Positions 5,713 through 55,076 of a DNA stretch of 64,000 nucleotides are shown piece by piece. How positions within the stretch are numbered: the stretch's first letter is position 1; the number at the start of each line of letters is the position of its first letter. The stretch is from Paramacrobiotus metropolitanus. Its lineage: Eukaryota > Tardigrada > Eutardigrada > Parachela > Macrobiotidae. The notes under the pieces were generated by a model. It did not search any database. It was not told the DNA's origin and saw only the letters and a program-made list of their open reading frames with translations. The position numbers were made by a program, and so were the translations under genes. The DNA is taken from positions 1,054,001 through 1,118,000 of the forward strand of contig NW_026570224.1 of assembly GCF_019649055.1 (NCBI RefSeq), read 5' to 3'.

Positions 5713-8700
5713 ATGACACAGTGGCCTGCATTATTTGTTCCAATAATAATCTCCACAATATGGCGGCAATGTTATGGCGAAGTGTTTTCTTCTACTGCGC
5801 ATATGCAGTCTGTGATTTCAACAGAAATCGAAATGGTTAAACAGCTGGAGGAATATATTGCGCTTCAGGAAGCTAAAGTCGACAAGCTTGCGAAGTAAGA
5901 AAATATTTTGAACTATAATTCTGCAGATGTTCTTCCACTCTTTTTGCACGTTGTGGGCGACATACAGGTACATAGATAAGTTATCTGCATTGTCGGAAGA
6001 TGCGGAGAAGCATGGGATTTTGCATCCAGCGGTGGCCTTCCTTCATTCCAAAGTACTGTCAAGGGATTTGGATGAGTTGATTGAGTACTACACAAAACAC
6101 CGTGAAGCAGGTAAGTAAAATGCTTGCGGCATTTTTCCCTTTACGCAATTATTGTAATGCATTAATTTTTTGTTCGGGCGCTTCCAATACTAGAGTAGTG
6201 ATGCATCATGTACCGGCTAAAAAATAATATTGTTTTCCGGTAATTTTATGCACTGCTGCAATTCTGCATATGAATCTGTAATTTTTGGAGCAGCTTCCAT
6301 GTAACAATTAAAAAACTAAAGCCATGCAAAAAATTATTTTTTTGGATGCATCGGTGTTGGCAAAAGATTCTATGTGCTGTAATTTCTACTCGTAGAGTAG
6401 GTATTGCAGAGGCGTACAGTACAGTACTACATTACTACGTACCTACAAGGGCTACACTACCTGTACTATGTATTGCAATTCGATATTCTTTTCGTTTGTG
6501 TCTGGAAATTTTTGCATTTTTTCTGTCTTCAGCGTACCTGGTAGTTAATAAATTCTGGGATCTCTTTTGTTTAGAACAAAAAGCTGAGTCCATACGGGCT
6601 TTCCGGAAGAAGCAGCCGTTTGCCCCCGACGAGAACGATCTGCGTGGCGCCGTTATCGCCCTGACTCGCCTGCAGCGCACCTACAAGATCACCGCCAAAG
6701 AATTAGCGGACGGTAGTTCGCCTGCTCTCCCCACCGACCAGCCTAAAATGTCGGTCAGTGACTGCTATACCGTGGCAAACGAGCTTTTCAAACAGGAGTG
6801 GTACGATCAGAGTTACGAATGGTTCGAAATCGTGTGGAATCGCTGCACCAACCGGGCCAGTGGTATTCTGCTGCCGGATCCCGATGGCGAGTGTACCGCA
6901 TCCGTCGTGGCCAGTGCGTTGGCTAAATCCAGCTACATCCTGTACCATGTGGACATGAACACGACAGCGGCAGTGCTACAAGCCGCCGAAGCATTGGCCT
7001 ACGAAGAGTCCAATCGCGATGCACTGGACTATATCAAGTTGTACTACACGCCGCTATCGGATTATCACGAGGATCTGGTGAACTGGACACAGTCCGACCA
7101 GTCCGATGCAAAGCATCCTGTACATCGGGATGACCGGTTTGATTCACTGTGCCGCGGCGAAGATAATGACCGGGTAGGTTGTGGTCAGCGATAAAGGCAC
7201 CGGAGTCTGCGTTAATTGATCAAAGTCGCGAAATGATGCTCAAAATGTACTGCTGTTCGTTTGTGCTCTGCTTTCTCAATTGTGATTAACAAAATTTTAT
7301 TGTCGGTAAACATCTGCATTTCCGACTGTGATAAAAATTCGTCCAATGGTCCGCATCTTCGGCGTAATTCTCGAGCTCTCCGCCCATAAAACTAACCGCA
7401 GTCAAAATAAAGTGTCATGACGTTATTACTTATTATTAAAGTTGTCAACTTCGTGGAGTGATAATTCCTTTACGTAATCTTGCACTTTCGGTTCTGGGCC
7501 TATGTTTCTTTGTGTTGTATAAGTATCAAGTATTGTATCTACATATTTTACTTGCAAGTTTTGCACTGTACAATACAGTGGACGGATTGCAGTGTTTATA
7601 TACTAACATATCGCTGGTCGGTTCACGAGCATAAACATGCGTCATTTCAATTTTCATTTTCTCGCATGGTGGGCTGCCTGTTCGTGTGGTCCACGTTTCA
7701 TTTGCGAACTCCATCATAGTGTAAGACTATGAGTATTTATGTTTCGAAAAAAATGTGCAGGATCACCGGACCAAACAAAAACGGCCGTGCTATCAAATTT
7801 CTTTTGACAAGCCTTTTTTGAAAGCCCAACCAGTGCGGGTGGAGCAATTGAGCGCTGATCCCTACATCCTTATCTATCGTAATTTTATGCATCCCAAAGA
7901 AACTGACCACATGATCCGAATTGGTACCGAGTTCCTGGCCAGAGCAGTGGTACAAAGGCCAACTCATCTGAATGGCTCCCAAGCTGTAACGGATTATGAT
8001 ATGGATCAAGTGACCTTTACGCGGACTGCGAAAACGTACGTAAACGTGCGTAAGCCAACAAAAACATTTAAAAAAACTGAGATACTGGCGATTTTATTTT
8101 AAACAGAAGTATATTTTTTATTATTGATACAAATTATAGTAAAACTAAAATTAATTATGTTAGGTTTTCAATGCAATTTTTTCCCAGTTAGGTGTACACG
8201 TGCTCTTGTTAGGGCTTGGTTCAATCACGATTACAACGAACTGACGCGCGCAATTAGCGCTCGAATTCATCAGTTCACTGGTTTGGACATGTCTGGAGCG
8301 GAACAGTTACAGTTGGCTAACTATGGAATTGGCGGTCATTATTATCCACATTACGATTATTTCGGCCATGGTGATCCGCGCATGGAGCCAAAAGAACTCG
8401 AAAAAGAACGCATCGCAACATTTATGGTGTACCTGACTGACGTACAAGCAGGCGGTGCTACTGTTTTCATAAATCAAAACATAACCGTCTGGCCAAGGAA
8501 AGGCGATGCTGTGTTCTGGTACAATTTGCATCGAGATGGCAAAGGCCACAAGGGAACTCTGCATGCTGGATGTCCGGTGCTGGCCGGTAATAAATGGGTA
8601 CTGAATGTGTGGATTCGCACCGAAGGACAGGAACTAATTCGACCATGTTTAATGCAACCGGATAGCCCGACCGAAACCCAGGCAACTAAAATAGTGACAA

Positions 8701-30606: not shown

Positions 30607-32315
30607 AAGTCTTTTCTTTACATTTTTTCTCTGCGTATGGGTATGTTTGACCAACCTCCAGGTTTGTACGGTCATGAAAAAGCTGGAGGCTCTTTCCAAC
30701 AGTATTTGTATCGTTTTGAATTATTGTTAACAATAAGAATTTTATTATTCCGCACAACACTGCCGCTTGTGCTACAGCACCATGCAATACTACTTATTCT
30801 GCTGCTAATCCATTATACATAGAAGTAATAATTTTTATTTTACGTTGCACTTCGGCTGCGCTTACATTGTCGTGAACTTTAATTACACTGTGCCTTTCAT
30901 ATAAAATTTAAAATCATGCTCAAGGCCCATATAATATGGTACACTGTCTGTTTCTTATTTGAATATAATATTATATCTATTACCCGATACAACATAAAAA
31001 TTTTATTACGTATCATATCAGTTTTAAACTTTTTGATACTTGCAACTGCGCTGCGACGCACTTTGATTCAGTATACGAATACATCGGATAGCGGTTTGAC
31101 TGCCGGAAACAGAAGTCAGCTTCGATTGGCAAACGACTGTGTCCGTATAATGGTATCGTATTCAAACTGTTTGCCGGTTTCAGATCGATATTCGATAGCA
31201 TCCCAGGTTGTACTTACTTCCGCCATCCTGTTGCCTGTATCAACGGTCTGGATAGTGGAAGGGCAATGTTGTACGCAAGCACTGCGGCACAACTTCGTTG
31301 TCTTTAAACATCAGCCAGCCAGTTAAAGTAATCCTTCCTGCAGGGGAGCCTAATCGCGTGCTCTGGTCTTCTTGCAAAATGTAAAGTGTAAAGCAAAGCC
31401 TTTTAAATGTTATACAAGGTTGTAAGTATCGTTCTGGAACACACCATCACCCGAGTTTCCGTCAAACTTTTCAGGGACAGACTGAACAGTACTATTTATT
31501 CTCTAGTAGCAAATGTATCGTGCATGATTGTTAAATCCGATACAATCTCTAGAAAGATTTGATTATTTTATTTGTCGACGGACAATCCTCAGAGACATAA
31601 TATAGCATAAGTATATTCTTTCCCTTTTGCTCCGTTTCTTAATACCATCTTCCTGTGGACAAGACACGTCCTTTGGTTTGCGGAAATGGAAGAAGGTAAG
31701 CGCACGTACGCATGTTCGAATTTTGGCCTTTAACCAACGTTTAGCTAACGTTTTTTTACAAACTGTTTTGCTCGGGACGTTGCATCCTGCTGCTCTACCG
31801 TAGAGGGTCGACATCAAATATCAACCCAATACCGCAGAAATAAAATTCAGTCAATTTTCTATCGTTTACTTTAATTTCAACAGTTTAAAAATTTTTAACT
31901 CAGTTATTCGACGGTAGCGCCGGTAAAAGTGTAGTCCTAACAGTTTTATTATTGTTTTCTGGACGTACGAGTGCATGCATTTGCACGGCTTACGCGTCTA
32001 ACACAATACGGCTTTTATAAGTAACATTACCCATAACGCCATTTTATGCACATGTCTCTACAAAAATTTTCCATGCGTTTAAACCGGTTGGGAATATTTT
32101 CTTGTTTCTATCCACGAGGTTTCCCAAATTTTTTGTCTTAATTAACTGCTATTATCATTGAGATAATATTGCATGATTTGTGCAATTAAAAGCGCAATCC
32201 GGTTTGATAAACGTGCCCTGAACGATATGGCATTAGTCATGAAAATCTGATGTTTCTATTGTGCAGAAAGCAAAACAATTGCGGTTAAATAATTTCTTGT
32301 TTGGTGTCTTATCAG
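30607..32315. other. Intergenic spacer upstream of PCP/amine-selecting gene 1
   Basis: Searched for exons of an NRPS adenylation domain that would complete an ebony-type enzyme; no core motif was recognised on either strand. Several short frames have no family resemblance. Any true first exon of the next gene must be short or lie here unrecognised. Confidence 0.4.
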
Positions 32316-33591
32316 ATTATGCTAGCCCTGGGATAATTTCTCAAGTATTGTTGCCGAACATCTCGGCATGACCACCTCCGATATACAGCCAACATCCAGT
32401 TTCGCCGAAATGGGAGGCACGTCATTGAACGCTGTATCGACGGTGCTAAAGTTACAAGAATCCGGATATACCGTCACCGTCGAGCAGTTTATGCGCAATC
32501 AGAATCTGGATGCGTTGTTGCAGATAGTGACGTCGGCTGATGCGAATACTAACCATCAGCATGACTATGTTATAAAAAATCTTAAGGAGAATATCGAACT
32601 AATTCCTGCCGCGCAGAAGCTCTTGTCCGACAGCTTCATGGCAAAATGTGAATGGTATTCTAAGTGCGGCAATATGCTAGCAGATGACCTCACGACCGTG
32701 TATGAAAAGTGGTGGGATGCCCTGGTCGATGACAGTTTCGCTGTTCTTACCCAAGATGGCACGATGAAAGCGGCATCTTTGGCCGGAGACCTGACGGTCA
32801 TACAGAACCTGGATTTAACGGATATTCATCCGCATTTCATCACGATACTGGATATGCTACAGTCCATTACCACACCAGTTTTGCTCAAGTACAATCCTCA
32901 AAATCGTCAGAGTGCGTAAATTTATCTGACTTTTTAAAACATTTTTAATTTGCAGCAAACCACTCATGTAAACTAAAAAAATCATTAAGTTTCCCTTTAG
33001 TTTGAATACGATCGTATATCTTATTAGTTCATCTGCAGCTGTGGTAAATGCTCCTGAAATGCCGCCACATTTGCAGTAATAAATACAATCATGCACGTGA
33101 TTCGTGAGAAAAGGTGCTGCGATACATTGGCTATATATCATGACTTTTTTGACAGATGTCGTTTTTTCAAAATTTATGCTTGGAGCCGCCACAGACAATA
33201 CGGCCGAAGAAAATGTTGCTTTATTCCTGCTCATGGAGCGAAAACTGCGTGATTTGGCCCAAGAAAAGCATTACACAATTACTTTGGCAGAAAATGTGAG
33301 CCCGTTAACGCAGGTATGACGATAAGCTTCCCATAATATTACCTAAAAAACACACCTGTTTAATCGTCGTGCGGTATATTAACAAAAATTCCATGTGGCT
33401 AATAAATCACTCTCTCTTTCTCTCTATCTCTGTAGCAAATATCGGATTATTTGGGTTGTACGCGCTGTGCAGAAATTTATCCTTGCACATGGGAAGATGC
33501 CGATGGCCAAAAACCTTTTGCCGCTTGTAGCATGGATTTTAACGTGACCGTCGACGTTTTTGAGTTAAATAAGCTTGATGAGAAAGAGTAA
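32316..33591 (+). CDS. Stand-alone PCP plus ebony-type amine-selecting (GNAT-like) protein, paralogue 1
   Basis: Exons 32316-32911, 33156-33313 and 33436-33591; from ATG 32368 this gives 285 residues. The N-terminal part is a peptidyl-carrier domain: FAEMGGTSLNAVSTVLKLQ has the GGxS motif with the phosphopantetheine serine (Ser19 from that ATG). Then follows a GNAT-like region (LLSDSFMAKCEWYSK, KWWDALVDDSFAVLTQDG, AASLAGDL) continued by exon two (TLAENVSPLTQ) and exon three. This order matches the C-terminal half of Ebony, the beta-alanyl-amine synthase whose carrier is followed by an amine-selecting domain. No adenylation domain is visible upstream. Exon one begins after an acceptor (ATCAG) with DYASP, as paralogue 2 does, but one base is missing at about 32329, so the frame only opens again before ATG 32368. 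The role would be amine conjugation with a partner enzyme, by inference. Confidence 0.68.
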
Positions 33592-33830
33592 AAGTAACAT
33601 TATTGAGATTCTGGCTTTATTTGTAGACTATAATCTCAGTTTAGGAATTGCCCGTGTGTATATGTGACGTGTAAGTTCGAAAAATTTAACTTGCTAAAAA
33701 AGACGGCAAAGCTCCTTAATACCATGTGAACGAAAAGAAAAACTAGCTGGACACATAATAGCAGTAAAGTCGTATTTAAAACCAAAACAATCACATCTTA
33801 ATTCGTCGTTTTAAAAAATTCAAATGATTT

Positions 33831-36800
33831 TTATTTATTAGTGTTTGAATCTTTTTTGTTGGCGGCATTTTTCTCTGTGTGATTCGAAGCCGTTCCACCT
33901 CGTCCGTTGCCGTTTCCGGCGGTTGATCCAGATTTCTGAGGTAAAGCAATTGGTCCAGTTGGTAAGAAATTGCCTTGTCCGGGCGGCAGAACCGGCACAG
34001 GTCCGATTGGAGTCTGTGCATGCAGCATCATATGCGGCCCACCCCGTGGCACACCCTGATTGGGGTTAATGTTAAATCCACCCGGTCCACTTGGTGACGG
34101 CGGCTGAAGTGGCGATCCCATCGCCACGTTGGGTGGAAAAAGAAACGGAGCATTGGAAGGTGGAGGCACGTTGCCGGTCGACCGTTCATTGCAGCTGGAT
34201 TGAAGTTCACTGGGCCTCCCGGCATAAATGGCGGTTGGTTTTGTTCCACCATTTGGCGCAGGTCTTTGAGCGCGCTGATATTACGCAGCAACTGGTCGTT
34301 AGCTAATAACGTTAGGTTCTGTAGAATGGTCTCAATGTTGAATGGGAGGGGAAAGGGTGGCGGCGGAATTACGGGTTGGTTATTAAAGGCGCTCCGGGAT
34401 TATTGGGTTGTTCGGGGATCGGCGGCGCAGGGGAGATGGATAGGTCACGACTGAAAACGCCGCTACGTTGCCTGCTGGATTCGGTGGGGTCGATACAACC
34501 CTGCTGCATCAAGAAATCGTGAAAATTTAGCTCGCCCAGGAAGCTCATACTGCGTTTCTTTGTCCATCTCTTAGCCAGACCCAATTCCAAATAGTTGCCA
34601 ACCATTGGATCAAAATTCTCGCCAAATCCATATCTGTTGTTATAAGAGACTGGTTCATTACAACGTAAAAACTTGCAGTACGGTCATCATTTGTCATATG
34701 TAATTAAATATCCGTGTTACCCGCGCTGCAGTATGCTGTTCAGTAGCATGCTCAGTTCTCTCGTCAAAAGTGTTGTCGAGCTGTCCTTTTGGTGGTTGGG
34801 ACTGGCCAGCAGTTTTATGCTTGTTCCGAATTCAATGCCTGTATGACAACAACTAATTAACAGGTCCGGAAGGTCGGCGCTGTGACCGCCCAGAACAGAG
34901 CGTACCGTGCAAATTTTCTCTTTGGACAGGAGTTTGATCTTCGTTGGCCATTTCGTAGTCCAGCACCACAACCTGTGTTCCCTTGGCAGCGTGATTGTGG
35001 ATGGCATACAAAGCAGCTTCTTGTGTAATAGGCGTAACAAATAAAAGGTCATTGGCCAACTAAAACAACAATACGACTGTTCATCGAACAGACACGGGGC
35101 TGCTGGTTGACTGGTTGACTATTACCCGAATCATGTTGAAACGCAAGACATCGGGATCCGCACCTTCGGGACCACCAAGCAAGTTGTACTTCTGTATAAG
35201 AGCGTCCATAGTCGCATTAGGCAGGGCATGACATCCCGTTCCCATAGGTATAATGTCGTTAATATATGTGTCTAGGGCGTAGGTGATTTTCGGCAGTCCT
35301 TGGCCAAACATGTGCTGCTTGTGGTCTATACAAATTTAGCATTAGAAAACAGATCGCGCAGTGTAAAACCGTTCCATGCAGTCAGACATATAAAGCCTGC
35401 ATACACTTTGCACAAAGTACTTGGGAAAATAAGTGCTAGCTACTGGTGTGGCTGTCACGTCATTAGGTTTGCATTTTTAACGATACTACCGCAGTACAGT
35501 ATTCGACGAGGTATCGCTTCTTATAACGTGTACGACTTATATTTCTGACAAAACAGTTGAAATAATTATGAGTAGTATTTTTAATTACTAAGACAGTTGT
35601 CTACTTACGCCCAATTAGAGAAGCTGCATCTGCGGTTTGCACTGTATACACACTTCCCCCAGAAAAATTCCATGGATGCCGGTCATCGAAAAGAACAACC
35701 GGATCGTACAGAATGTGATGACCATCCACCACTAATTTCCAGGACATATGTCGCTGCCAGCACAACGTAGAGTTAGTCACTTACCATGTAGTTTATTATA
35801 TGGATACTGCATTTCTCGTAAAAAAAACCATTGCTCTGAATCCGAGCTCAGTTCACTAACATGTTCCGTTCGGACAAATATCTGGACTCTTATGGCCATC
35901 AGTTTTTGCATGCAGCAGTTTACCATTGATGGGTCCGTCAGAGCGATCGCATCAGCTGCTCGTAGCATATCGGTGGCGCTGCGGTTGGTTAAGCAATTAA
36001 AAATGGCTGCCGACGTCATTTGTACCGCGGAACAGTTCATTAAGGCGGCTAATTTCATTGTGTCCGAACTAGAATCCTTTGACATCGCCCACGGTGCAAG
36101 GAGCGAGCCGCTCATAAGCAAGGTGCTGTGAACGCGATCTGATGGTAAGTAAAAGCACAGCTTTTAAACTGACCATGACCATACGCTTTTATAGGTAAAA
36201 CTATGTAGGTAAACCGGCGTTTTGTAAATCGGTGCGTCGGTTCTCTGTAACCAGGAACGGCTTCAAATTAAACCGATTTGCACAAATATTACCAACACCG
36301 TTCGAGTGCTTTGATTTAACAGAGTTAATACTACCTAATTTAACTGATGCAAGAAGAAATCATATTAAATATCATTATACTATATTCCTTCATTCCTGCA
36401 TATTCAGACAGCTTTCATACGAAAGGTACACGTACTTCGTATATTTGGGTCCAGCATCATTGCTGAAATTAAACTGGCTCCAGTATCGTGCCCACCCAAA
36501 ACAATGCGCTTCTTGTCCCCACCAAAAGCTTCAACCGTGGCGTACAACCATTCGAATGCGGCTTTGAGATCAGCTAACCCCCAATTTCCCGGCGCAACGC
36601 TATCCTCGGTGCTTAGAAATCCTTAAAAATATTGAGGAATGAGTAAACATGGGAATTTATTATAGATTCTGGAAATTACGTCCGTCAGCATAGCATAATT
36701 AAAACTTGTAAGCTTTAGAAGTAAACTAAGAAGATTATACGATTACGAAAAACAGGGGAAGATTATACGATTACCAAAAACACCAGTTCGATACTGCACG

Positions 36801-37917
36801 GGTACAACGATAGCCGGAATCGTCTGCACTATGTTTCCAGCTCCCTTCTTTTGACCACCGAGTACTAAAAAATTTCAGAGTGCGGTAAAACAATGGTAAA
36901 ATTACTGTTATATCTGATTAGTTACGAACAATACGATCGGGGCAAAAACATCATCTATAGAAACAGCATTATAATATTATAATTTTATGAACTACTAGAA
37001 GACAGTAATGTACGTCTACTGTACATCTTGTGATACATTTCATCATAAAATTTAAATTTTACGGTACGTGTTTTTATAATAACCATCGCCTTCGGCTCCA
37101 AACGATCCATGAACCCAGAATAAAACAGGGTGCAAGAAATTGCTGCTGGCTGTTGGGGCAACCGGTGGGACATATACATCCAGGTAGAGACAGTCCTCGT
37201 CCATTCGGATGTCCGGAGAAATCCTAGCACTCTGCCAGCATGCCGGCCCGTGTTTGTCGACATTATTGTTGATGTTACCGTAATACGACAAATCCTCATT
37301 CAGAATTGGATTCTGGTATGCGAAATCAAGGTAAATTATGCGTGTATTAAAAATACCACCGGAAAACAGAGGTATTAAATTTCTCAATACATGTAGGAAA
37401 TAAATATTATGAATTTTTCTGTACTGAGACATGCTAATACGCAAAAACCCACAAATTTACGAACTTATAATTAAGCTATTAACACCCGATAACTTAATGG
37501 TGCATGACATAGTTTTGTGGGCAGGGGCATATACGTCGTATCTACAATATATATCTATATATGTATATCATGATATGAACGGTTAAGATGTGGCAGCTTC
37601 AAGCCTTCAACGATTCTTTTTGATGGGTAGATTGATTTTACAGTATATGCTGAGTAGGATTTTCAGTACCACTGAAATTCTTCTTTATTTTAATTATGAC
37701 AACTTACACTGAAGCGCCTGGCAGAGGCATATTTTATTCCCGGATAGACCCAAGCATTCCACCCAGAAACCGTAGTATTAATTAATTCCCCAGCAATGAG
37801 ATAATTTCCCAGTTTAACGTTCCCTTGATATAAGGCATTCCAGTCAATATTCGCTCTAGTGGAACAAAAAATTGTAGAACTAATAATTGCAAATAATTCC
37901 AAATTTATAAAAGCCAT
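33831..37917 (-). CDS. Cholinesterase-like protein without catalytic serine, with Pro-rich tail; frame breaks
   Basis: Minus-strand exons: 37917-37708, 37312-37063, 36864-36775, 36621-36436, 36138-35785, 35731-35609, 35325-35126, 35059-34721, 34633-33831; about 850 residues. A signal peptide (MAFINLELFAIISSTIFCST) is followed by alpha/beta-hydrolase marks: ASARRFSNPI, DEDCLYLDVYVPP, FWVHGSFG, IVVPVQYRTGVFGF, LLMSGSLLAPWA, FVTPITQEAALYA and GGHSADLP. The nucleophile elbow, normally GESAG, reads GHDTGA, so Ser is replaced by Asp. The acid region reads QTADAASL without Glu; the His is kept. It is therefore probably a non-enzymatic cholinesterase-like secreted or adhesion protein, as in neuroligin, neurotactin or gliotactin, but no membrane segment follows. 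The last exon codes an unusual Pro/Gly/Asn-rich tail. Three single-base frame breaks are needed (about 34.92-34.99 kb, 34.375 kb and 34.185 kb). Confidence 0.72.
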
Positions 37918-38246
37918 CTTCAGACTATAACCAACCCGGCGTACACAGTGATTCCATATAATTGCATGCAGTAGATATATATAGAAAATAATTCTGCCAC
38001 AATTTTACTGAAGCATTGCCGTAATTATTTGTTTACTTTAATTTTGTTGTTGTTAGATGATCTTCATAATAGCCTTTGTGTGTTTGCACAATAGGCAGCT
38101 TATAAGCCGTTTGCATGAACATGTCGACGGCATCAGTAAATAGACAGGATTGCTGGAAATCAGACGGCACGTCATCACTGAATATACATATAGTGATGAC
38201 GTGCTATTAGATTTGGTAATTACACCAAATTATATTAACAACTGTT
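37918..38246. other. Short spacer upstream of the esterase-like gene
   Basis: Should contain the minus-strand promoter of the esterase-like gene. Nothing coding is seen. Confidence 0.4.
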
Positions 38247-38696
38247 TTACATGTTGCCATATGTAGCGGTCAACGTTCTTGACATCCGGAACATCAATGT
38301 TGCACATGCTACATATAAAGGAAACTTTAATTTAAAATTGCAGTATTGTTGTTGTGCGGTATTGCTGCTGTGCAGATTCTGCGCCTTATATGTCGCATCT
38401 GGCACCTTTTTGGCTTCGTAACACGCATTTCGTAACTTACTGTTAGGGAAAAATGCCGGTTGGTTTACAACTTCGGCACTAGAAAGTAAGAAAAAACCCA
38501 GCCTATCAGAAATGAGTTCTACCTTCGCTACAGAATTTGGATTAAAGTAAGTACTTATCGTATCCGCGATTATCATTACAGTCGTTATCAACCAAAAGAG
38601 AAACCAACTGTAGTTTTTCACTCCATACCACAGCTGTACAGATGATACAAAGTGCGGACGATGGAACGACACTGAGCGTCCAGGTGTATGGGCCAT
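38247..38696 (-). CDS. Hypothetical membrane protein exon, weak DEG/ENaC-like N-terminus
   Basis: An uninterrupted 149-codon minus-strand frame. After a basic 30-residue start it has one strong hydrophobic segment, SWFLFWLITTVMIIADTI, followed by a polar region with AEVVNQPAFFPNSKLRNACY. A single helix after a short cytosolic tail and then an FP...N...S-K-L stretch loosely recalls the first helix and following strand of DEG/ENaC channels. The likeness is weak, no pore-side helix is found nearby, and a GTAGAA donor inside (after NSVAK) would cut it short. It could be a lineage-specific gene, a fragment, or a chance frame. Codon-level evidence is not decisive. Confidence 0.28.
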   Translation of the reverse strand: MAHTPGRSVSFHRPHFVSSVQLWYGVKNYSWFLFWLITTVMIIADTISTYFNPNSVAKVELISDRLGFFLLSSAEVVNQPAFFPNSKLRNACYEAKKVPDATYKAQNLHSSNTAQQQYCNFKLKFPLYVACATLMFRMSRTLTATYGNM

Positions 38697-39478
38697 GCTA
38701 CGTATTCAAAGTGTAATAACTTTTGCAAATCTGGTGTTTCGCGGCTTTGCATTCTTGATGAATAAAGTTACCGCAATACTTGCAGTGCATTTCAGGAGTC
38801 CTAACGAGAGATTTGTGTTCGGTATAGGTTGTATTCTGTATAGGCCGTACCAATGCAATATCAGTATCCATAATATAGACTATACGTATGCATGTATTGT
38901 ACATTCTTATCCCATACCACACGTATATGAGCATGGCGTATGGTACTACGTGTGGTATTTCCTCCACACTGCTTCAAAGTGCCGATTGGGCGAAACTAAA
39001 GAGTGTTCGGGACATTACGGTACACGTCAAATTTGTATGTTTATTTCTACGATATGTTCCTCGCGCATGCCGCCCGTAGAAGCCGTAAATGTAGGACTTT
39101 GCAAAAGCAACAAAATCAGAGCTCATAATAAAGCAAGGAACTGTAGGTTGTTGCTGGTTATTGTACCGAATAGTCTTAATTATACGTTTATGCATTCATC
39201 AGTTAATACTATTTAACGATTATAGTATTTTTTGGGTCTGCAATCATGGAAGACGGTATGCTCCTTCGATTTGATTTAATGGTCATATAAAATAATTTGT
39301 AATGCGTAATGGAAAATGCAGAGTTGCTTACTAGCAAATTGTAATATCAAATTATTTCTAATTTTAAAGTGTCATAGTATACGACATCGCTTAGGGCGGC
39401 TGTAAATTACCGTGACGTCATAGTGGTCATCGCTTAGTACGAGCATTTCGGTCGAACTTATTCAGCGCGTTGTCTTTT
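38697..39478. other. Spacer upstream of PCP/amine-selecting gene 2
   Basis: No adenylation-domain exon was found here. The + frame at 38695-39216 is not protein-like. Contains imperfect inverted stretches around CATACCACACGTA and ACTACGTGTGGTA near 38914-38955. Confidence 0.35.
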
Positions 39479-41316
39479 ATGCCAGATTACGCCAGTCCGT
39501 GGGACAATTTTCAAAGCATCGTCGCCAGTGATCTCGGAGTACCTGCCACCCACATAGACGGATCGTCAACCTATTCCCAGCATGGTGGAACATCGATCAA
39601 CATTTTGTCCACTATCCTAAAACTGCAGCAAGCCGGACATGCCGTTACATTGGAACAGCTGATGCAGCAAGATCTCAATTCCTTGATGCAGTATTCTGCA
39701 CCATCCGGCGAAAGTGGGCCCAGATACAACTTTTCCGTGCGGTACTTGGAAGATGCCGAAGAAGGATTTGTACACCAGGTCTTCGTTCTAATTGGGGAAA
39801 GCTTCACACAAAAATGTGAAATGTTTAGCACCGCTGGAAACATGACAGTCAATGATTTTGTGGATATGTTTAAAACTTGGTGGGTGTACTTTTCCAAATA
39901 CAGCTTTGCTGTGGTGGATGAAAAAGGGATTCCCAGAGCCGCCTCTCTCAATGCGGATCAGGTAGACTTGACCAACGCACCGATTGACAAAATTCATCCA
40001 CACTTCGTTAAGATTGGAGAAATGCTGGACGAGATTACGAAACCTGCCGAACATAAGTACAACCCTGAGCTAAAGAAAGGTACGTTGAATAAAAATGGAG
40101 ACTTAATTAACCTACAGTAGGGAATGAAGCAACTTAAAAGCGTGAATTTTGCAGGGCGACATCAAAGTGTTAAATGTGAAATACTGTTTTTTAAGCAATC
40201 GTATGCATAACGCGTGAGACTGATAATTTACGAGCTGCACGAGCTAAAAAATTTTATAAAGCTTATTTTTCAAGAAATCTGTGTATAATCAGTTACTAGT
40301 AACATTTCTAGGTTGTGCATAAATAAGCCTAGCAAATAAGCAGACAGTAAAATTCGCTCTCAAATGTATATAAGTTAACCTTCTCAAAAAGACGCAAGTT
40401 ACTTTAGACGCGCGTGTACGGGTAATCGATTTATGTGGAATATCTATCTAGCGACACGAGTCCTACTGATGTCAGTACCTTGAAGTAATGCAGCGCAAAA
40501 GAGATATCGAAACTATAAATATTAATACGTATCACATATTATCTGGCGTCCACTGCGTGCTTTTTTGAGCGACATTTATGGTTTCTCTGGCCTTATGAAT
40601 AATAAAACGATCCTTAAAAGCTTCTAATTGCAGGAATCGTTTTCACAAAACTGTTTGTTGGGGCATCGGTGAAAAATACACCGGAAGAAAACGTTGTTCT
40701 TATAAACATGGTGGAAGTGGAAAACAAGCTTCTGGCGGAGCGGTTGCGCTTTCAAATTACTCTTGCAGAGAATGCAAGTCCGGTAACGCAGGTAATAAGA
40801 CGACTACAGTAACATTTATGGTTTCTGTCCAAACTGAAGTTCTTACAATTATATACACCTCATCTTACTGTATTACATGAGGTTCACTATAATTTTAGTA
40901 GTACGAAAAGTAGTAAGTACCATTAGCGCGCTCAAAGTGTCGGAAGGGAAATTTTGCACACTGCAAGGACAAGTGCGGTTTGCGACAAACGAAAATTTAA
41001 ATATCATGCTGTACATAAATCGACTAGAAAAGGGAAATATCTGAAATTTTAACCTGCAATATTTGCTAGAATACGCTTAGAATTCTTATATATTTATTGG
41101 GTTTCGAGGCTTGAGTAAAAATAATGTACATTTCATTGCCTTGCGGTTACTTTTCAGGATATATCCGCCCATTTGGGATGCATTCGGTACGGCGAAGTTT
41201 ATGTGAATAAATGGAGAGATTCGACAGGAAACATACCGTTTCCTACATGTCCAGATTATTTCAGAATGACTGTTGATGTATACGAAACATTCAATTTTCC
41301 CGCCAAGAAGAACTAA
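39479..41316 (+). CDS. Stand-alone PCP plus ebony-type amine-selecting (GNAT-like) protein, paralogue 2
   Basis: Exons 39479-40079, 40634-40791 and 41158-41316 give 305 residues with clean phases (1, 0). The start ATG at 39479 opens MPDYASPWDNFQSIVASDLG, the first helix of a peptidyl-carrier domain; the serine of HGGTSINIL (Ser39) is the phosphopantetheine site. The following GNAT-like part has VLIGESFTQKCEMFS, FKTWWVYFSKYSFAVVDEKG, ASLNADQVD, then EENVVLINMVEVENKLLAE with ITLAENASPVTQ, and a last exon ending FNFPAKKN. Exon two is 158 bp in both paralogues and introns sit at identical places, so this is a duplicate of the gene at 32.3 kb. As in Ebony, the carrier would present an activated amino acid to the amine-selecting domain, but the activating domain is absent. 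An acceptor-like TTTTATGCCAG overlaps the ATG, so a 5' exon remains possible. Confidence 0.74.
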
Positions 41317-49100: not shown

Positions 49101-52100
49101 GTACAAAATCATAAACTGCTGTTTTGTCATTTGCATGTATATATATGTAAATTTACTTCAGTGAGCTAATTACTATCTTATGCATAAATTATGTGAGCTT
49201 GTAAATATATGTTTAGGTGTTCGATTCACGATTTACGGACACGCCGCGCACTATGTTCCAAGCGCTATTAAACCACATAAAATATTCAACAAATCGCGGG
49301 AATATCCGATCTGCTATAACCATCTTCAAACAACGCAACAACCCCGAGCAGGACTATCGCATCTGGAATGCGCAGCTGATACGCTACGCCGGTTACCGGC
49401 AGGAAGACGGCAGTATTATTGGTGATCCGGCATCGGTGGAGTTTACTGAGGTCTGAAACAACAGCATTATATCAGCAATTTGTCGGTCGATGGAAAAGTT
49501 ATTTGTTCTTTTCTGCTAACAGTAGGTAAATATTGGTATTAGGTGTGCCAAAAGCTGGGCTGGAAAGGGCCAGGTGGACGGTTCGATGTGTTGCCCATCA
49601 TGGTGTCCGCCAACGGACAGGATCCGGAACTGTTTGATCTGCCCCGGGAAGTGGTTCTCGAAGTCCAGATCAAACACGCAGAGTAAGTACACTAAAATAA
49701 AAATAGAAAAGCGATTACAGTGTTCGCTGTTTTTCGTGTAAATACGAAAACTTATGTGTGTGATATTCCATGTGGTGACTATTGTTTAGTGTGCGAGAAT
49801 ACTTAATAAATTTCTTTGTTCGACGGTAGTTCACAAAACTTACACCTTTTCTTGATTGTTTGTGTGGGAGAAACTGATAAAAAGTATTGCATAAACAGGT
49901 ACACAAAACTTGAAAATTTGGGACTGAAGTGGTATGCTGTTCCTGCTGTGTCGAATATGACCTTTGATGTCGGAGGCGTGTTTTTTCCGGCAGTTGCCTT
50001 TAGCGGTATGCCCTTTCTGTATATATGCCAAATATTTAAGCTTAAAATTATATAAATGGACATTTATGGAAAAATATTGACTGCCCTTTTGGTTTAATTA
50101 GGTTGGTATATGAATACAGAAATTGCAAGAGATTTCTGTGATACCGGTAGATACAACCTTCTAGAGGCAAGTTCCTATTTAGGATAGACCGTTTACGGTC
50201 TTTATTTTTTCTGGTCAACCCTACCAGATAAACATGCATTTTAGGATGTCGCCAGCGTTTTTGGATTTGATTCTACTAGAGTATCTTCACTATGGAAAGA
50301 TCAAACGTTTCTGGAACTTAACAAGGCAATATTGCACAGTTTTCAGGTGAATAACGCTAGTTTTACTCAGAACGATTTATATGACTTGCATTTATATTAT
50401 TAGATTTATATTTTAGAACGATTAATATTTCTATTCAATGATTTATAAGTCTGTTCGTATCTACTACTTTTCCAAGCTCACGTCGGTAACAAATCTATTA
50501 AAACAGGAAACGTTTTACCGTTTTGTGGCGCTTTGCAAAAATATATAAATTAACTATAGGCTCAGACAACCTTGAGGTCCTGACAAAAACAGCTTGATTG
50601 TATATTATGTAAACATGCATAATTTCCATTTAATTTGGCATGCAACGGAATATACTTATGCTGACGGTTTTCTTAGACGGCTAATGTAACTGTCGTGGAT
50701 CATCATTCGGCGTCAGAATCTTTCATGAAACACGTGGAAAATGAGCAGGTACAATTTGTAAAGCGGCCATAACATTAATTTTCATGTCGATTTTTAAAAG
50801 TTCTTTTATTTGGAAGTAGCGTAAAACCTTTAAACGAACTATTTCCCATCAGATAATCTTTCTGGTGCTTAAATTATGCAGAAACTTCGTGGAGGATGCC
50901 CGGCTGATTGGGTGCGTGGAAAATGGCAATTTTCGACTGCCATTTTCGCATTTATAAGTGACGTATACGTCAAGCATTGTATCGTAGGTTTGGATTGTTC
51001 CTCCATTAGGCGGAAGTCTGTTGCCTGTTTTTCATCAGGAGATGCTGAACTATAAGCTTTCTCCTTGCTATGATTATCAAGTTAGTACTTAACAGGCAGC
51101 GATATATGCGTACGCATTTTGAATAATATTAATTATTTACTACTAATGTGTCAAAATTTGAGTCTTGTAAAATTCAAACTATAATTATTATGGTGCGCAT
51201 GAACAAGAAACACCATTTTTTATAGATGGCTCGGGCCAGTCATTTACTTCCTCGTTAAACAATTTACAGAGAACGTTTCAAAAACTCCATACAATATGTA
51301 TTTGCGTAATTTCTATACCGACACACCTTAATGCGGCTAATAAAAGGAATTTCGTAGGAAGAAGCCTGGCGGGTACACATTTGGAAAAAGGATAAAAATA
51401 AGTCGAGCAACCGAAACTCTATGAAGCGTAAATTTGGATTTAGGGAAATTGCAAGGTTAGCGGTCAACCAAATGAAATACGTTACCTTCTGTAGGGCGTA
51501 TGCGCACAACTGCACATCGCGAAGTGCAGTCTACCGTCGCAGCTTACGGGAAGTTTCGTGATGCAGCATAAGATTATGTTTATTAATTAATGAGAATGGT
51601 ACGCCACAAAAAATTGATTAAGTGGTCCGTGGTTGTAAATTATTTCCAGCCATTTAAGTGTTTTGACATAAATTTTCACATTTACCACCCAACGACTAGA
51701 AAATGAAAGATATACAGAAAAACGTGATCGATTTGACCTTTTTAGAGCCGTCAAGTTTTCGGCTAAGCTAATGTCTAAAGCACTGGCAAGAAGAATTAGA
51801 GCGACTATAATTTACGCTACGGAAACGGGAAAATCGGAAAAATACGCCAGAACACTCTTTGATGTGTTCAAGTACGGATTCGACGTGAACGTTATTTCAG
51901 CAGAGAACTACGATTTAACACATCTAGAACACGAAGCGCTGATTCTCGTTGTTACAAGCACCTTTGGTAATGGCGATCCGCCCGATAACGGCAAGGATTT
52001 CGCTAGTTATCTGCATCAGCTTTCATGTCCGGATGACACCACCAGGTCGGCAATTTTATGTTCCGCAACTGTTTCGAGACTGACTTTCCAAAAATTATTA

Positions 52101-55076
52101 CTGTTTACAATCTTACCCTCTTTTTATTGATTCGGTGTTTTTAGCAAAGCCGTGCCAACATATTCGCGAGTAACGCACCCGTTGTCCACGCAGCGCCCAT
52201 CAATACAAGCGGCCGAAGCTCCACAAATCGGTATGATGGATCTCGGCGGTCCTTTAGGAAACGTGAGGTAACGATATGTATATTATCAACTGATTAGTTG
52301 AAAAATATTATATTTTATCATTGTGGCTTGCTTTGTTAATTGTTTGCAGCGAAAATACAAAATACAAAATAGTTCTTGAGCGACAACTGATTGTTATTTA
52401 CTGAATGCTTGTTGTGCACGCAATACTGTATAAAGTGCCGCAAGTGTACATTTTTCCACAAGTACAATTATTTTAATTCTAGGTACAATTATTTTAATTG
52501 TGGGTATGTTTAGATACGCGGTGTTTGGATTGGGTTCCAGTTCGTACCCGCACTTTTGCGCATTCGCCCATTACGTCGATCAAGCACTGAATAAGCTGGG
52601 CGCTGAGTGTATACTACCTATCCACACAGGTGATGAACTGTGTGGCCAGGATCAGTCCTTCAAGAAATGGGCACCGGAAGTCTTCCGGATGGCATGTGAT
52701 GTGTTCTGCCTGGGTGATGACGTCAACATGGCCGACGCTAAAGCAGCATTCTTCCAAGGCGACAGTTCGTGGACGCGTGGGCGTTATCGCATTCGGACGG
52801 TGACCGGGGGTGTGGCCGAAGATATGCAAACCGGTAACTAATTTGCTTAGCTGTTTTAAGCATATGCAGAATCTTGGGAACGTAGAGTCGCAACGAGAGT
52901 TTTTAACTACAGCTTTGGCTGCCACCCATAATAAGACCATTCTGACATGCACACTGAGTGAGCGGAAAAATCTCCAAAGTGCCCAGTCCAATCGTCAGAC
53001 TGTGCTAATTCACTTGGATAGTGCCGAAGATCTTTCATATGTGCCCGGGGACCATGTGGCGCTGTTCGCGCAAAACGATCCGGCCTTGGTGAGCGCACTG
53101 TTGGAGCGCCTGAGCATTAAGGTTTCTCCTTCACCGGTCCAGATGGAGGTCTTGGTGGAGAAGCCGGCAGTAGGTGCGTGCCAGTTTTCAATGGTCATGT
53201 CCAACTCATGTGCACAGCATTCGTCTTTACAATAAACTAGGGTAGTACTCTGTAGTATAAGGGCTTTTGTGGTTGGATGTAGGTGGATCTAACAAGACAT
53301 GGTGCCCAATGGAGAGACTACCGTCGGTTCCTCTTAATGTCATCTTTTCATCCCTGCTGGACATCACGACACCCCCATCTCAAATGCTGCTAGAAAATCT
53401 GGCATCATTAGCAGCTGATCCTGACGAACAGGAGCGATTAATCGTTCTCTCGAAGGTATCTATTATGCTGTTGAGCCTTTGTAACTGTAAAGTGTAAACG
53501 CAAGGTACTGAGTCACGAAACTGGCAAAAGTTATTAATTTTTTTTAAAATGCTAATCTGAGTAAAATTTCGTTACTCTAAACTAATTTAGCCGGAATGCT
53601 TTGTATGTACTTTTGTATATAATATTTTTATATGTGGCCCGGAAACGCTGTGTTTTCATTGCTTCATGAACGATTTTTTGCTGCAGAATACAGAAGCGTA
53701 CGAAACTTGGAAACGCTTTAACTGGCCAACACTAATCGAAGTCTTAGAAGAATTCCCTTCGATAGAAATGGACCCCACCTTATTGCTGGTTGAGCTTCCT
53801 TTATTGCAGCCAAGGTTTTATTCCATTAGTTCGTCCCCTTTGGTCAGTGTCCGGCAGGTGCACGCTACGGTCGGAATAGTGACGTAAGACATGCATGGCG
53901 GGATCCTTTCTTTTTATACTTTATTGTTAACAATTCTGCTTTGAAAATAAACCAGTTATCAAACCAAGAACGGCAATGGACCTTTGCATCGCGGCGTATG
54001 CTCGTCCTATCTTAGTAAACATCCCATCGGCGAAAAAGTGTACTGTTACCTCAGAAGGTAAATACATCCACGTAAATGTATGTAGTTATTTCCGGTCTGT
54101 ACTAGATCCGCAACAAGGTTGATAATTATTGATATTAGCTTTCACCAGGAATTAATGCTGTATAATAATTTATTTATCACCATAATTCGTTAGTGCCCCG
54201 GGATTCCGTCTGCCGGAAAAAATATCCATTCCAATTTATCTCATCGGAGCCGGAACTGGCATTGCGCCCTTCCGCAGTTTCTGGCAGCATCTGCTCCACA
54301 CATATCTAGCCAATCCGACTGGTCGCAAACCAGAGATAACCATTGTTTTTGGTTGTCGAAACCAAAAGATGGATCACATTTATAAGCAAGAAATTGAAGA
54401 CCTGCAAAAGTATGGTTTACTACGAAAACTGCACCTGGCACTTTCCCGTGAACCCGGCGTACCAAAGGTAAGTAAACTGTCCTCACTAAAATGTTGCCTG
54501 CAAAAGTTGGCGTAGAACTAAGTATATTTTTGAAAGCTATAATCCAGTTGCATGCTTGAACCTTCGAAGTGTTCTCCAGCAGAAAGGCGATGATATCCAC
54601 AGAATAACCAGAAAGGTCATGTGCATTGGTCCATTTGCTATCTTGTTTAGACATACGTGCAAGATGTCATACCCTTGATTGGAGAAACATTGCATACGGA
54701 TATTTTTACTCGCGGCGCGCATATTTATGTAAGCAAACGACCTGTGCTGCTAACGCAATTTTGTTTTGATTATTTTACTGCTTAGAGTTCGGGAAGACAC
54801 ATTACTAAGATCGTTTTCGTAGGTTTGTGGGGATGTCGGAATGGCAGCAGGTGTTCACGATGCCATTAAGAATGTCATTGTCGCACGAGGTCAAACTGAG
54901 ATGGAGGCCGAAAACGTTCTGGACTCTTTGAGAGTAAACACACACACGTCACACATCGTTATTTTCATGTATGCCCCTGCGGTTTCAACATCTGAACGCA
55001 ATTGATATTTCAGAGCGGAGATCGGTATCATGAAGACATTTTTGGCAACTACAATATGGCTTCCGGCCTCCAGTGA
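46107..55076 (+). CDS. NOS: Nitric oxide synthase, neuronal-type, with N-terminal PDZ domain
   Basis: Twenty-four exons give about 1437 residues: 46107-46767, 47607-47921, 48184(or 48229)-48406, 48771-48933, 49217-49450, 49543-49682, 49899-50005, 50102-50166, 50245-50346, 50677-50748, 50882-50911, 50988-51080, 51358-51455, 51746-52045, 52145-52267, 52514-52799, 52870-53173, 53283-53455, 53687-53883, 53956-54057, 54194-54467, 54651-54728, 54823-54933, 55014-55076. Domains: PDZ (about 14-97) with an nNOS-like beta-finger ([17 protein letters not shown]); zinc motif CNHHRC; haem ligand Cys in [10 protein letters not shown] (about 444); arginine-binding Glu in [11 protein letters not shown] (about 621); pterin region WVWIVPP; calmodulin site around [23 protein letters not shown] domain (YATETGKSE) with an autoinhibitory-size insert; FAD (RFYSISSSP) and NADPH (CGDVGMAAG) sites. 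It makes NO and citrulline from arginine, calcium/calmodulin dependent by inference. One residue is missing just after the catalytic Glu relative to mammalian nNOS. Confidence 0.95.
49027..49058 (+). repeat. Intronic copy of a piece of NOS exon 3
   Basis: These 32 bases in the intron after exon four equal exon bases 48297-48328 with a single C/T difference. The exon copy codes [11 protein letters not shown] just after the zinc cysteines. The intron copy has no proper splice sites around it and ends in a stop soon after. It looks like a short direct duplication about 730 bp downstream. Confidence 0.75.
50167..50244 (+). other. GC-AG intron in NOS
   Basis: The exon ends ...CTAGAG and the intron starts GCAAGT, the standard GC-AG donor, ending ATTTTAG. 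Reading frame and family alignment (YNLLE then DVASVFG) require this junction. Length is 78 bp. Confidence 0.8.

Follow-up and report, generated by a model that had tools for sequence, protein, structure and literature searches.

Ebony-like carrier genes of a tardigrade that lack an adenylation domain, and their possible charging in trans

Carrier–AS genes in the window and on a second contig

The window considered here, the whole stretch of 64,000 nucleotides of the Paramacrobiotus metropolitanus genome that was analysed (contig NW_026570224.1, positions 1,054,001 to 1,118,000 of the forward strand), contains two plus-strand genes, P1 (31686-33591) and P2 (39246-41316), the exons of which were rebuilt from the window and encode a carrier domain followed by an amine-selecting (AS) domain of the Ebony type. 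In P1, a candidate start exon (31686..31695, ATGGAAGAAG, encoding M-E-E and ending at a phase-1 donor GTAAGC), the layout of which appears to be common to P2 and to a third gene, P3, precedes exon 1 (32316..32911; carrier and first half of AS), exon 2 (33156..33313; AS, 158 bp) and exon 3 (33436..33591; end of AS, including the stop). The corresponding parts of P2 are a candidate start exon likewise predicted from the sequence (39246..39255, ATGGAAGACG, M-E-D, phase-1 donor GTATGC), exon 1 (39486..40079; carrier and first half of AS), exon 2 (40634..40791; AS, 158 bp) and exon 3 (41158..41316; end of AS, including the stop), with an in-frame ATG at 39479 as a possible alternative start. Splicing P1 to its start exon leaves a one-base frame shift between the acceptor and position 32326, just before the Pro-Trp of 'SPWDN', and the remainder is open; P2 and P3 are open over four exons with GT-AG sites. 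The introns of P1 and P2 are alike (phase 1 after exon 1, phase 0 after exon 2), and the identical intron positions and 158-bp middle exon reported in a preliminary description of this DNA are confirmed. The 158-bp length is shared by P3 and by the related gene E1 (161 bp in E2) and is a trait of the whole family, not peculiar to P1 and P2; the argument that the matching introns and this exon mark P1/P2 as a recent pair was rejected because E1 shares the exon.

The carrier of P1 (32344..32523, GGTS serine codon at 32422-32424) matches PF00550 with an E-value of 1.2e-9 (38.7 bits), and that of P2 (39512..39685, GGTS serine codon at 39593-39595) with 3.3e-5 (24.5 bits, cut-off 20.8). Drosophila Ebony (6dym) is the top PDB match by phmmer for the AS domains of both P1 (1.5e-11) and P2 (1.2e-6), in agreement with the earlier account of two paralogues with a GGTS carrier and an Ebony-type domain; the carrier serine that it had called Ser39 in the second paralogue is present and would be numbered Ser40 with the start exon included. 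Structure prediction for P2 exon 1, in alignment with that of P1, gave a poor model, from which we draw no conclusion (pLDDT 52.3 on average, and below 50 for residues 1-83, the carrier part). Pfam searches found no condensation domain (PF00668) in P1, P2 or P3.

P3, the third gene without an adenylation (A) domain, lies on contig C26 (1081994-1083411), and its exons match the P1/P2 layout. With P2 as query, nine matches passed an E-value limit of 10, each of them an exon of P1, P2 or P3; two of the three matches on C26 were weak (E 0.1 and 1.5), and the rebuilt P3 gene has matching exons. The AS domain of P3 matches 6dym at 2.6e-14 (PDB), whereas its carrier, with DADS instead of GGTS and the carrier serine kept, has no PF00550 match in Pfam. 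Across the three proteins, each about 300 residues long, the carrier serine and an NxSPxTQ motif of the AS domain are invariant, the latter being common to fly Ebony as a motif likeness that names no catalytic residues. Amino acid identities are low (P1-P2 41%, P1-P3 30%, P2-P3 28%), which argues that A-less carrier-AS genes are old. Between pairs, pN is 0.39-0.50 and pS 0.80-0.82, the silent sites being saturated and hence giving no dN/dS; pN values below the saturated pS, in frames that stay open for about 300 codons, suggest that the protein is under selection. A scan of prokaryotes with the P1-P3 alignment, based on two short peptide patterns, gave 99 pattern matches and no relative.

The coordinates given in the preliminary description open at a splice acceptor, and candidate 10-bp start exons are present upstream, so that P1 and P2 seem to begin further upstream. 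Candidate start exons span 10-13 bp across P1-P3 (in P3, ATGGAGCCCGAAG), and the three genes thus look like genes for short A-less proteins. The start-exon pattern has one match in each of the three upstream 700-base stretches vs. 6.9% of 4,000 random stretches of the window, a comparison in which the pattern was defined after the exons were seen and the window itself includes P1 and P2. In-frame stops lie 25 (P1), 13 (P2) and 44 (P3) codons upstream of the start ATG, and one, one and four AG dinucleotides, respectively, fall between the last such stop and the ATG, which makes another upstream exon possible in each gene. At 7342-7349 of the P3 locus (L014), about 150 bases upstream of the start ATG, TATATAAG would fit a promoter immediately ahead of this A-less gene. 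Elsewhere in the window, open frames at about 51600-54500 resemble, by eye only, a partial nitric oxide synthase gene.

Adenylation domains around the genes and across the genome

In tblastn searches with four A-domain queries (the A-bearing relatives E1, E2 and E3, and one conventional NRPS), neither the 64-kb window nor the 10-kb P3 locus gave a match with an E-value of 1 or lower, and the A-bearing loci were matched as a positive control; Pfam matched none of four chosen upstream open frames, of which three lie in the window and one in the P3 locus. The earlier statement that no A domain lies upstream of P1 and P2 therefore holds at this scale, and the A-less architecture of P1-P3 is well supported. 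It is very improbable that these are normal Ebony genes with overlooked A-domain exons farther upstream. Such a view could draw on the presence of a complete A-carrier-AS gene (E1) in the same genome, on the one to four AG dinucleotides as possible acceptors and on genome-wide A-domain searches in which only 14 of 85 and 12 of 63 candidates were scored, but it is opposed by the empty window and P3 locus with working controls, by in-frame stops 13-44 codons ahead of the start ATGs and by a carboxylesterase exon (PF00135) on the opposite, minus strand at 37052-37456, which separates P1 from P2.

The genome searched comprises 169.8 Mb in 533 contigs. An SAHS protein query matched 13 exons in it, all on C3 (best E 2.6e-12), as is characteristic of a eutardigrade. 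A query with part of the E1 A domain yielded nine matches (10 of 10 candidates scored), namely E1, E2, E3 and six NRPS pieces on contigs C63 and C76. E1 and E2 adjoin on C87 (L016), and E3 lies on C10 (L021). This search of the genome revealed no Ebony-like A domain standing alone; those that it matched are confined to E1, E2 and E3, where each is followed by AS. Of the split system proposed earlier, the free-standing carrier-AS proteins are thus supported, with three genes, and the separate Ebony-like adenylating enzyme is not supported. E1 has the A-carrier-AS architecture, with a PF00501 match in each of its two A pieces, a carrier match (E 1.2e-6, two breaks being read as X) and an AS domain matching 6dym at 1e-6; PDB matches of its A domain are led by linear gramicidin synthase (4.8e-55) and include D-alanine ligases of the DltA type, and its A3 loop, TSGYPGKSV, deviates from the usual form. 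E2 combines an A-like domain (112 bits) with AS, and E3 a weaker A-like domain (62 bits) with an AS domain resembling that of E2; in both, a proline-rich linker joins the altered A-like domain to AS, no carrier match was found in Pfam, and several of the usual A motifs are lacking when the sequences are read by eye. The E2 AS domain gave no Ebony match against the PDB (five other matches, best E 0.11) and pairwise blastp values, for a search space of one sequence, of 2e-29 with E1 and 2e-9 with fly Ebony. E2 shows no frame break in its joined exons, and the main frame of E3 is open over 593 residues, its last exons having been read by eye. AS is the sole domain found in all six members.

An unrooted tree of AS domains (seven rows) separates E1-E3 from fly Ebony and P1-P3 with support of 100/99, and unites P1-P3 with 93/93, under the 95 mark. 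Fly Ebony falls between the two clades, and which of them is nearer to it therefore depends on the root; pairwise blastp against fly Ebony gives 70.5 bits for P3, 61.2 for P1, 50.1 for E1 and 43.1 for P2. The fly NxSPxTQ motif is kept in the P clade and absent from E1-E3. Together, the P1-P3 clade and the shared motif indicate that the A-less form most likely predates the separation of P1, P2 and P3.

Possible donors, helper enzymes and the integrity of E1

Lacking an A domain, P1-P3 would depend on a different protein for activation. The genome-wide searches revealed adenylate-forming enzymes of the acyl-CoA-synthetase kind, and a donor outside the Ebony family, among such enzymes, is possible; the only one of these inspected, on C21, was set aside and reads as a long-chain acyl-CoA synthetase, and further PF00501 matches are found on C13, C147, C106, C4 (at 2.1 Mb), C64, C6 and C211. 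Carrier matches (PF00550) number 12 in the genome: six in the C63/C76 NRPS loci, P1, P2 and those on C113, C42, C140 and C177, the last within a 1917-aa frame. From their translations only, C113 and C42 were set aside as further Ebony carriers (mitochondrial-type ACP), as was C140 (ALDH1L-like). This search missed the E1 carrier, we think because of the frame breaks in E1. The genome contains a single match to a phosphopantetheinyl transferase, on C61, and a single match of the Tan type (PF03417), on C49, and supporting parts may thus exist. The loci C63:381899-390986 and C76:26211-36306, in each of which the A and the carrier domain are matched three times, are conventional NRPS loci (a condensation domain was found in the one C76 frame tested) and may represent a transferred gene, an old gene or a contaminant.

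E1 carries four single-base frame changes (+1, -1, -1, +1), which on visual inspection coincide with short homopolymers or lie close to them. In an HSP70 (PF00012) control of 88 matches and 59,583 bases, which is blind to changes near match ends and may include pseudogenes, four frame changes too tightly spaced to hold an intron were observed (-1, -1, +2, -1), all of the one-base-missing kind; by hand estimate, about 0.2 changes would be expected at this rate in the some 2.6 kb of E1. Two of the four changes in E1 are of the +1 kind, unseen in the control, so that assembly error does not readily account for them, and a pseudogene is a possible reading of E1. On the other side, the Paramacrobiotus sp. 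TYO assembly, seemingly the one used here, is described as built from nanopore R9.4 reads with Illumina polishing (PMC8277472), and with breaks also occurring in HSP70, some may be sequencing errors. E1 would thus be either a pseudogene or a poorly polished stretch of the assembly. The HSP70 matches are spread over many loci, several of them clustered on C13, C72, C45 and C83, a distribution that suggests an HSP70 expansion in this genome.

A candidate A-less branch of the Ebony family and known systems

The explanation that we favour, tentatively and at somewhat less than an even chance, is that P1-P3 form a branch of the Ebony family that lacks the A domain, most likely charged in trans by another adenylating protein, with AS transferring the amino acid to an amine. 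An ancestral A-carrier-AS gene would have lost its A-domain exons and had a tiny start exon, and the A-less gene would then have duplicated to give P1, P2 and P3. The carrier would be converted to its holo form by the phosphopantetheinyl transferase of the genome and charged with an amino acid (beta-alanine, by family precedent) by another adenylating protein, for which Ebony-like E1 on C87 may be the best candidate; AS would hand the amino acid from carrier to amine. We infer loss rather than gain of the A domain, as well as the expression, substrates and product of P1-P3, and charging of P1 and P2 in trans is our hypothesis, the different amine conjugates suggested earlier being likewise hypothetical. 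One point against E1 as the donor is that it has a carrier and AS of its own and need not serve others. A more elaborate version, in which A-like-AS proteins, carrier-AS proteins and one full chain would cooperate in trans and feed several AS domains with one activated amino acid, appears quite unlikely.

A rather unlikely, though weightier, alternative is that the P genes, along with E1, represent relics or non-catalytic remnants of a decaying family with no Ebony chemistry left. The frame breaks (one in P1 and four in E1, compared with the HSP70 rate), the degenerate carrier of P3 and the A-like domains of E2 and E3 without a carrier are all in line with decay; they have to be balanced against the open frames and GT-AG sites of P2 and P3, an amino-acid pattern that stays constrained though silent sites are saturated, and the breaks in HSP70 genes of the same assembly, some of which may be sequencing errors. 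The retention of AS alone in all six members could also mean that AS acts as an arylalkylamine N-acyltransferase without its own carrier, using acyl-CoA or the carrier of another protein, the attached carrier being vestigial. P3, where the AS domain scoring best with fly Ebony accompanies the weakest carrier, and E2 and E3, without a carrier match, would fit such an enzyme; nevertheless, P1 and P2 retain a recognisable GGTS carrier that it would not need, and we regard this possibility as improbable.

Ebony is described as a single-module NRPS without the usual condensation domain. According to PMC10531068, Ebony-type A domains have been placed in several phyla, NRPS-like enzymes are considered rare in animals, and a search of two tardigrade species returned no NRPS genes. 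In the open-access literature, we found no description of A-less carrier-AS proteins and nothing on tardigrade Ebony with dopamine; the main text of the P. metropolitanus paper (PMC11191345) does not contain ebony. What is new here is the redistribution of the domains of Ebony, known as one chain, over several proteins. A family with A-carrier-AS, A-like-AS and carrier-AS members in one animal would allow experimental testing of trans charging of an animal carrier and of the independence of AS in setting the amine product. Ebony-type conjugates have roles in pigmentation, histamine recycling and reproductive signals (PMC11214079), and their action in several processes would make the tardigrade products worth knowing.

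Among known systems, the flatworm Sm-NRPS and planarian nrps (beta-alanyl-tryptamine synthases) are also of Ebony type outside arthropods and make amine conjugates; as described in the accessible part of PMC11214079, they are NRPSs similar to Ebony, with no A-less form mentioned, and this description sets them apart from the P genes. Ebony of Drosophila melanogaster, an A-PCP-AS beta-alanyl-amine synthase, resembles P1-P3 in AS sequence, in the position of the carrier ahead of AS and in its NxSPLTQ motif (NxSPVTQ in P2), and differs from them in being a full chain, whereas P1-P3 are proteins of about 300 residues without an A domain and with an AS identity of 25-28%. In the DltA/DltC system, a free carrier is loaded by an adenylating enzyme that is a protein of its own; to our knowledge, it is bacterial and its carrier has no fused AS domain. 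We likewise know of no AS domain in the animal enzyme ACSF4-U26/AASDH. According to PMC10531068, this enzyme is a single-module, beta-alanine-activating one, and represents a conceivable type of donor for carriers such as those of P1-P3.
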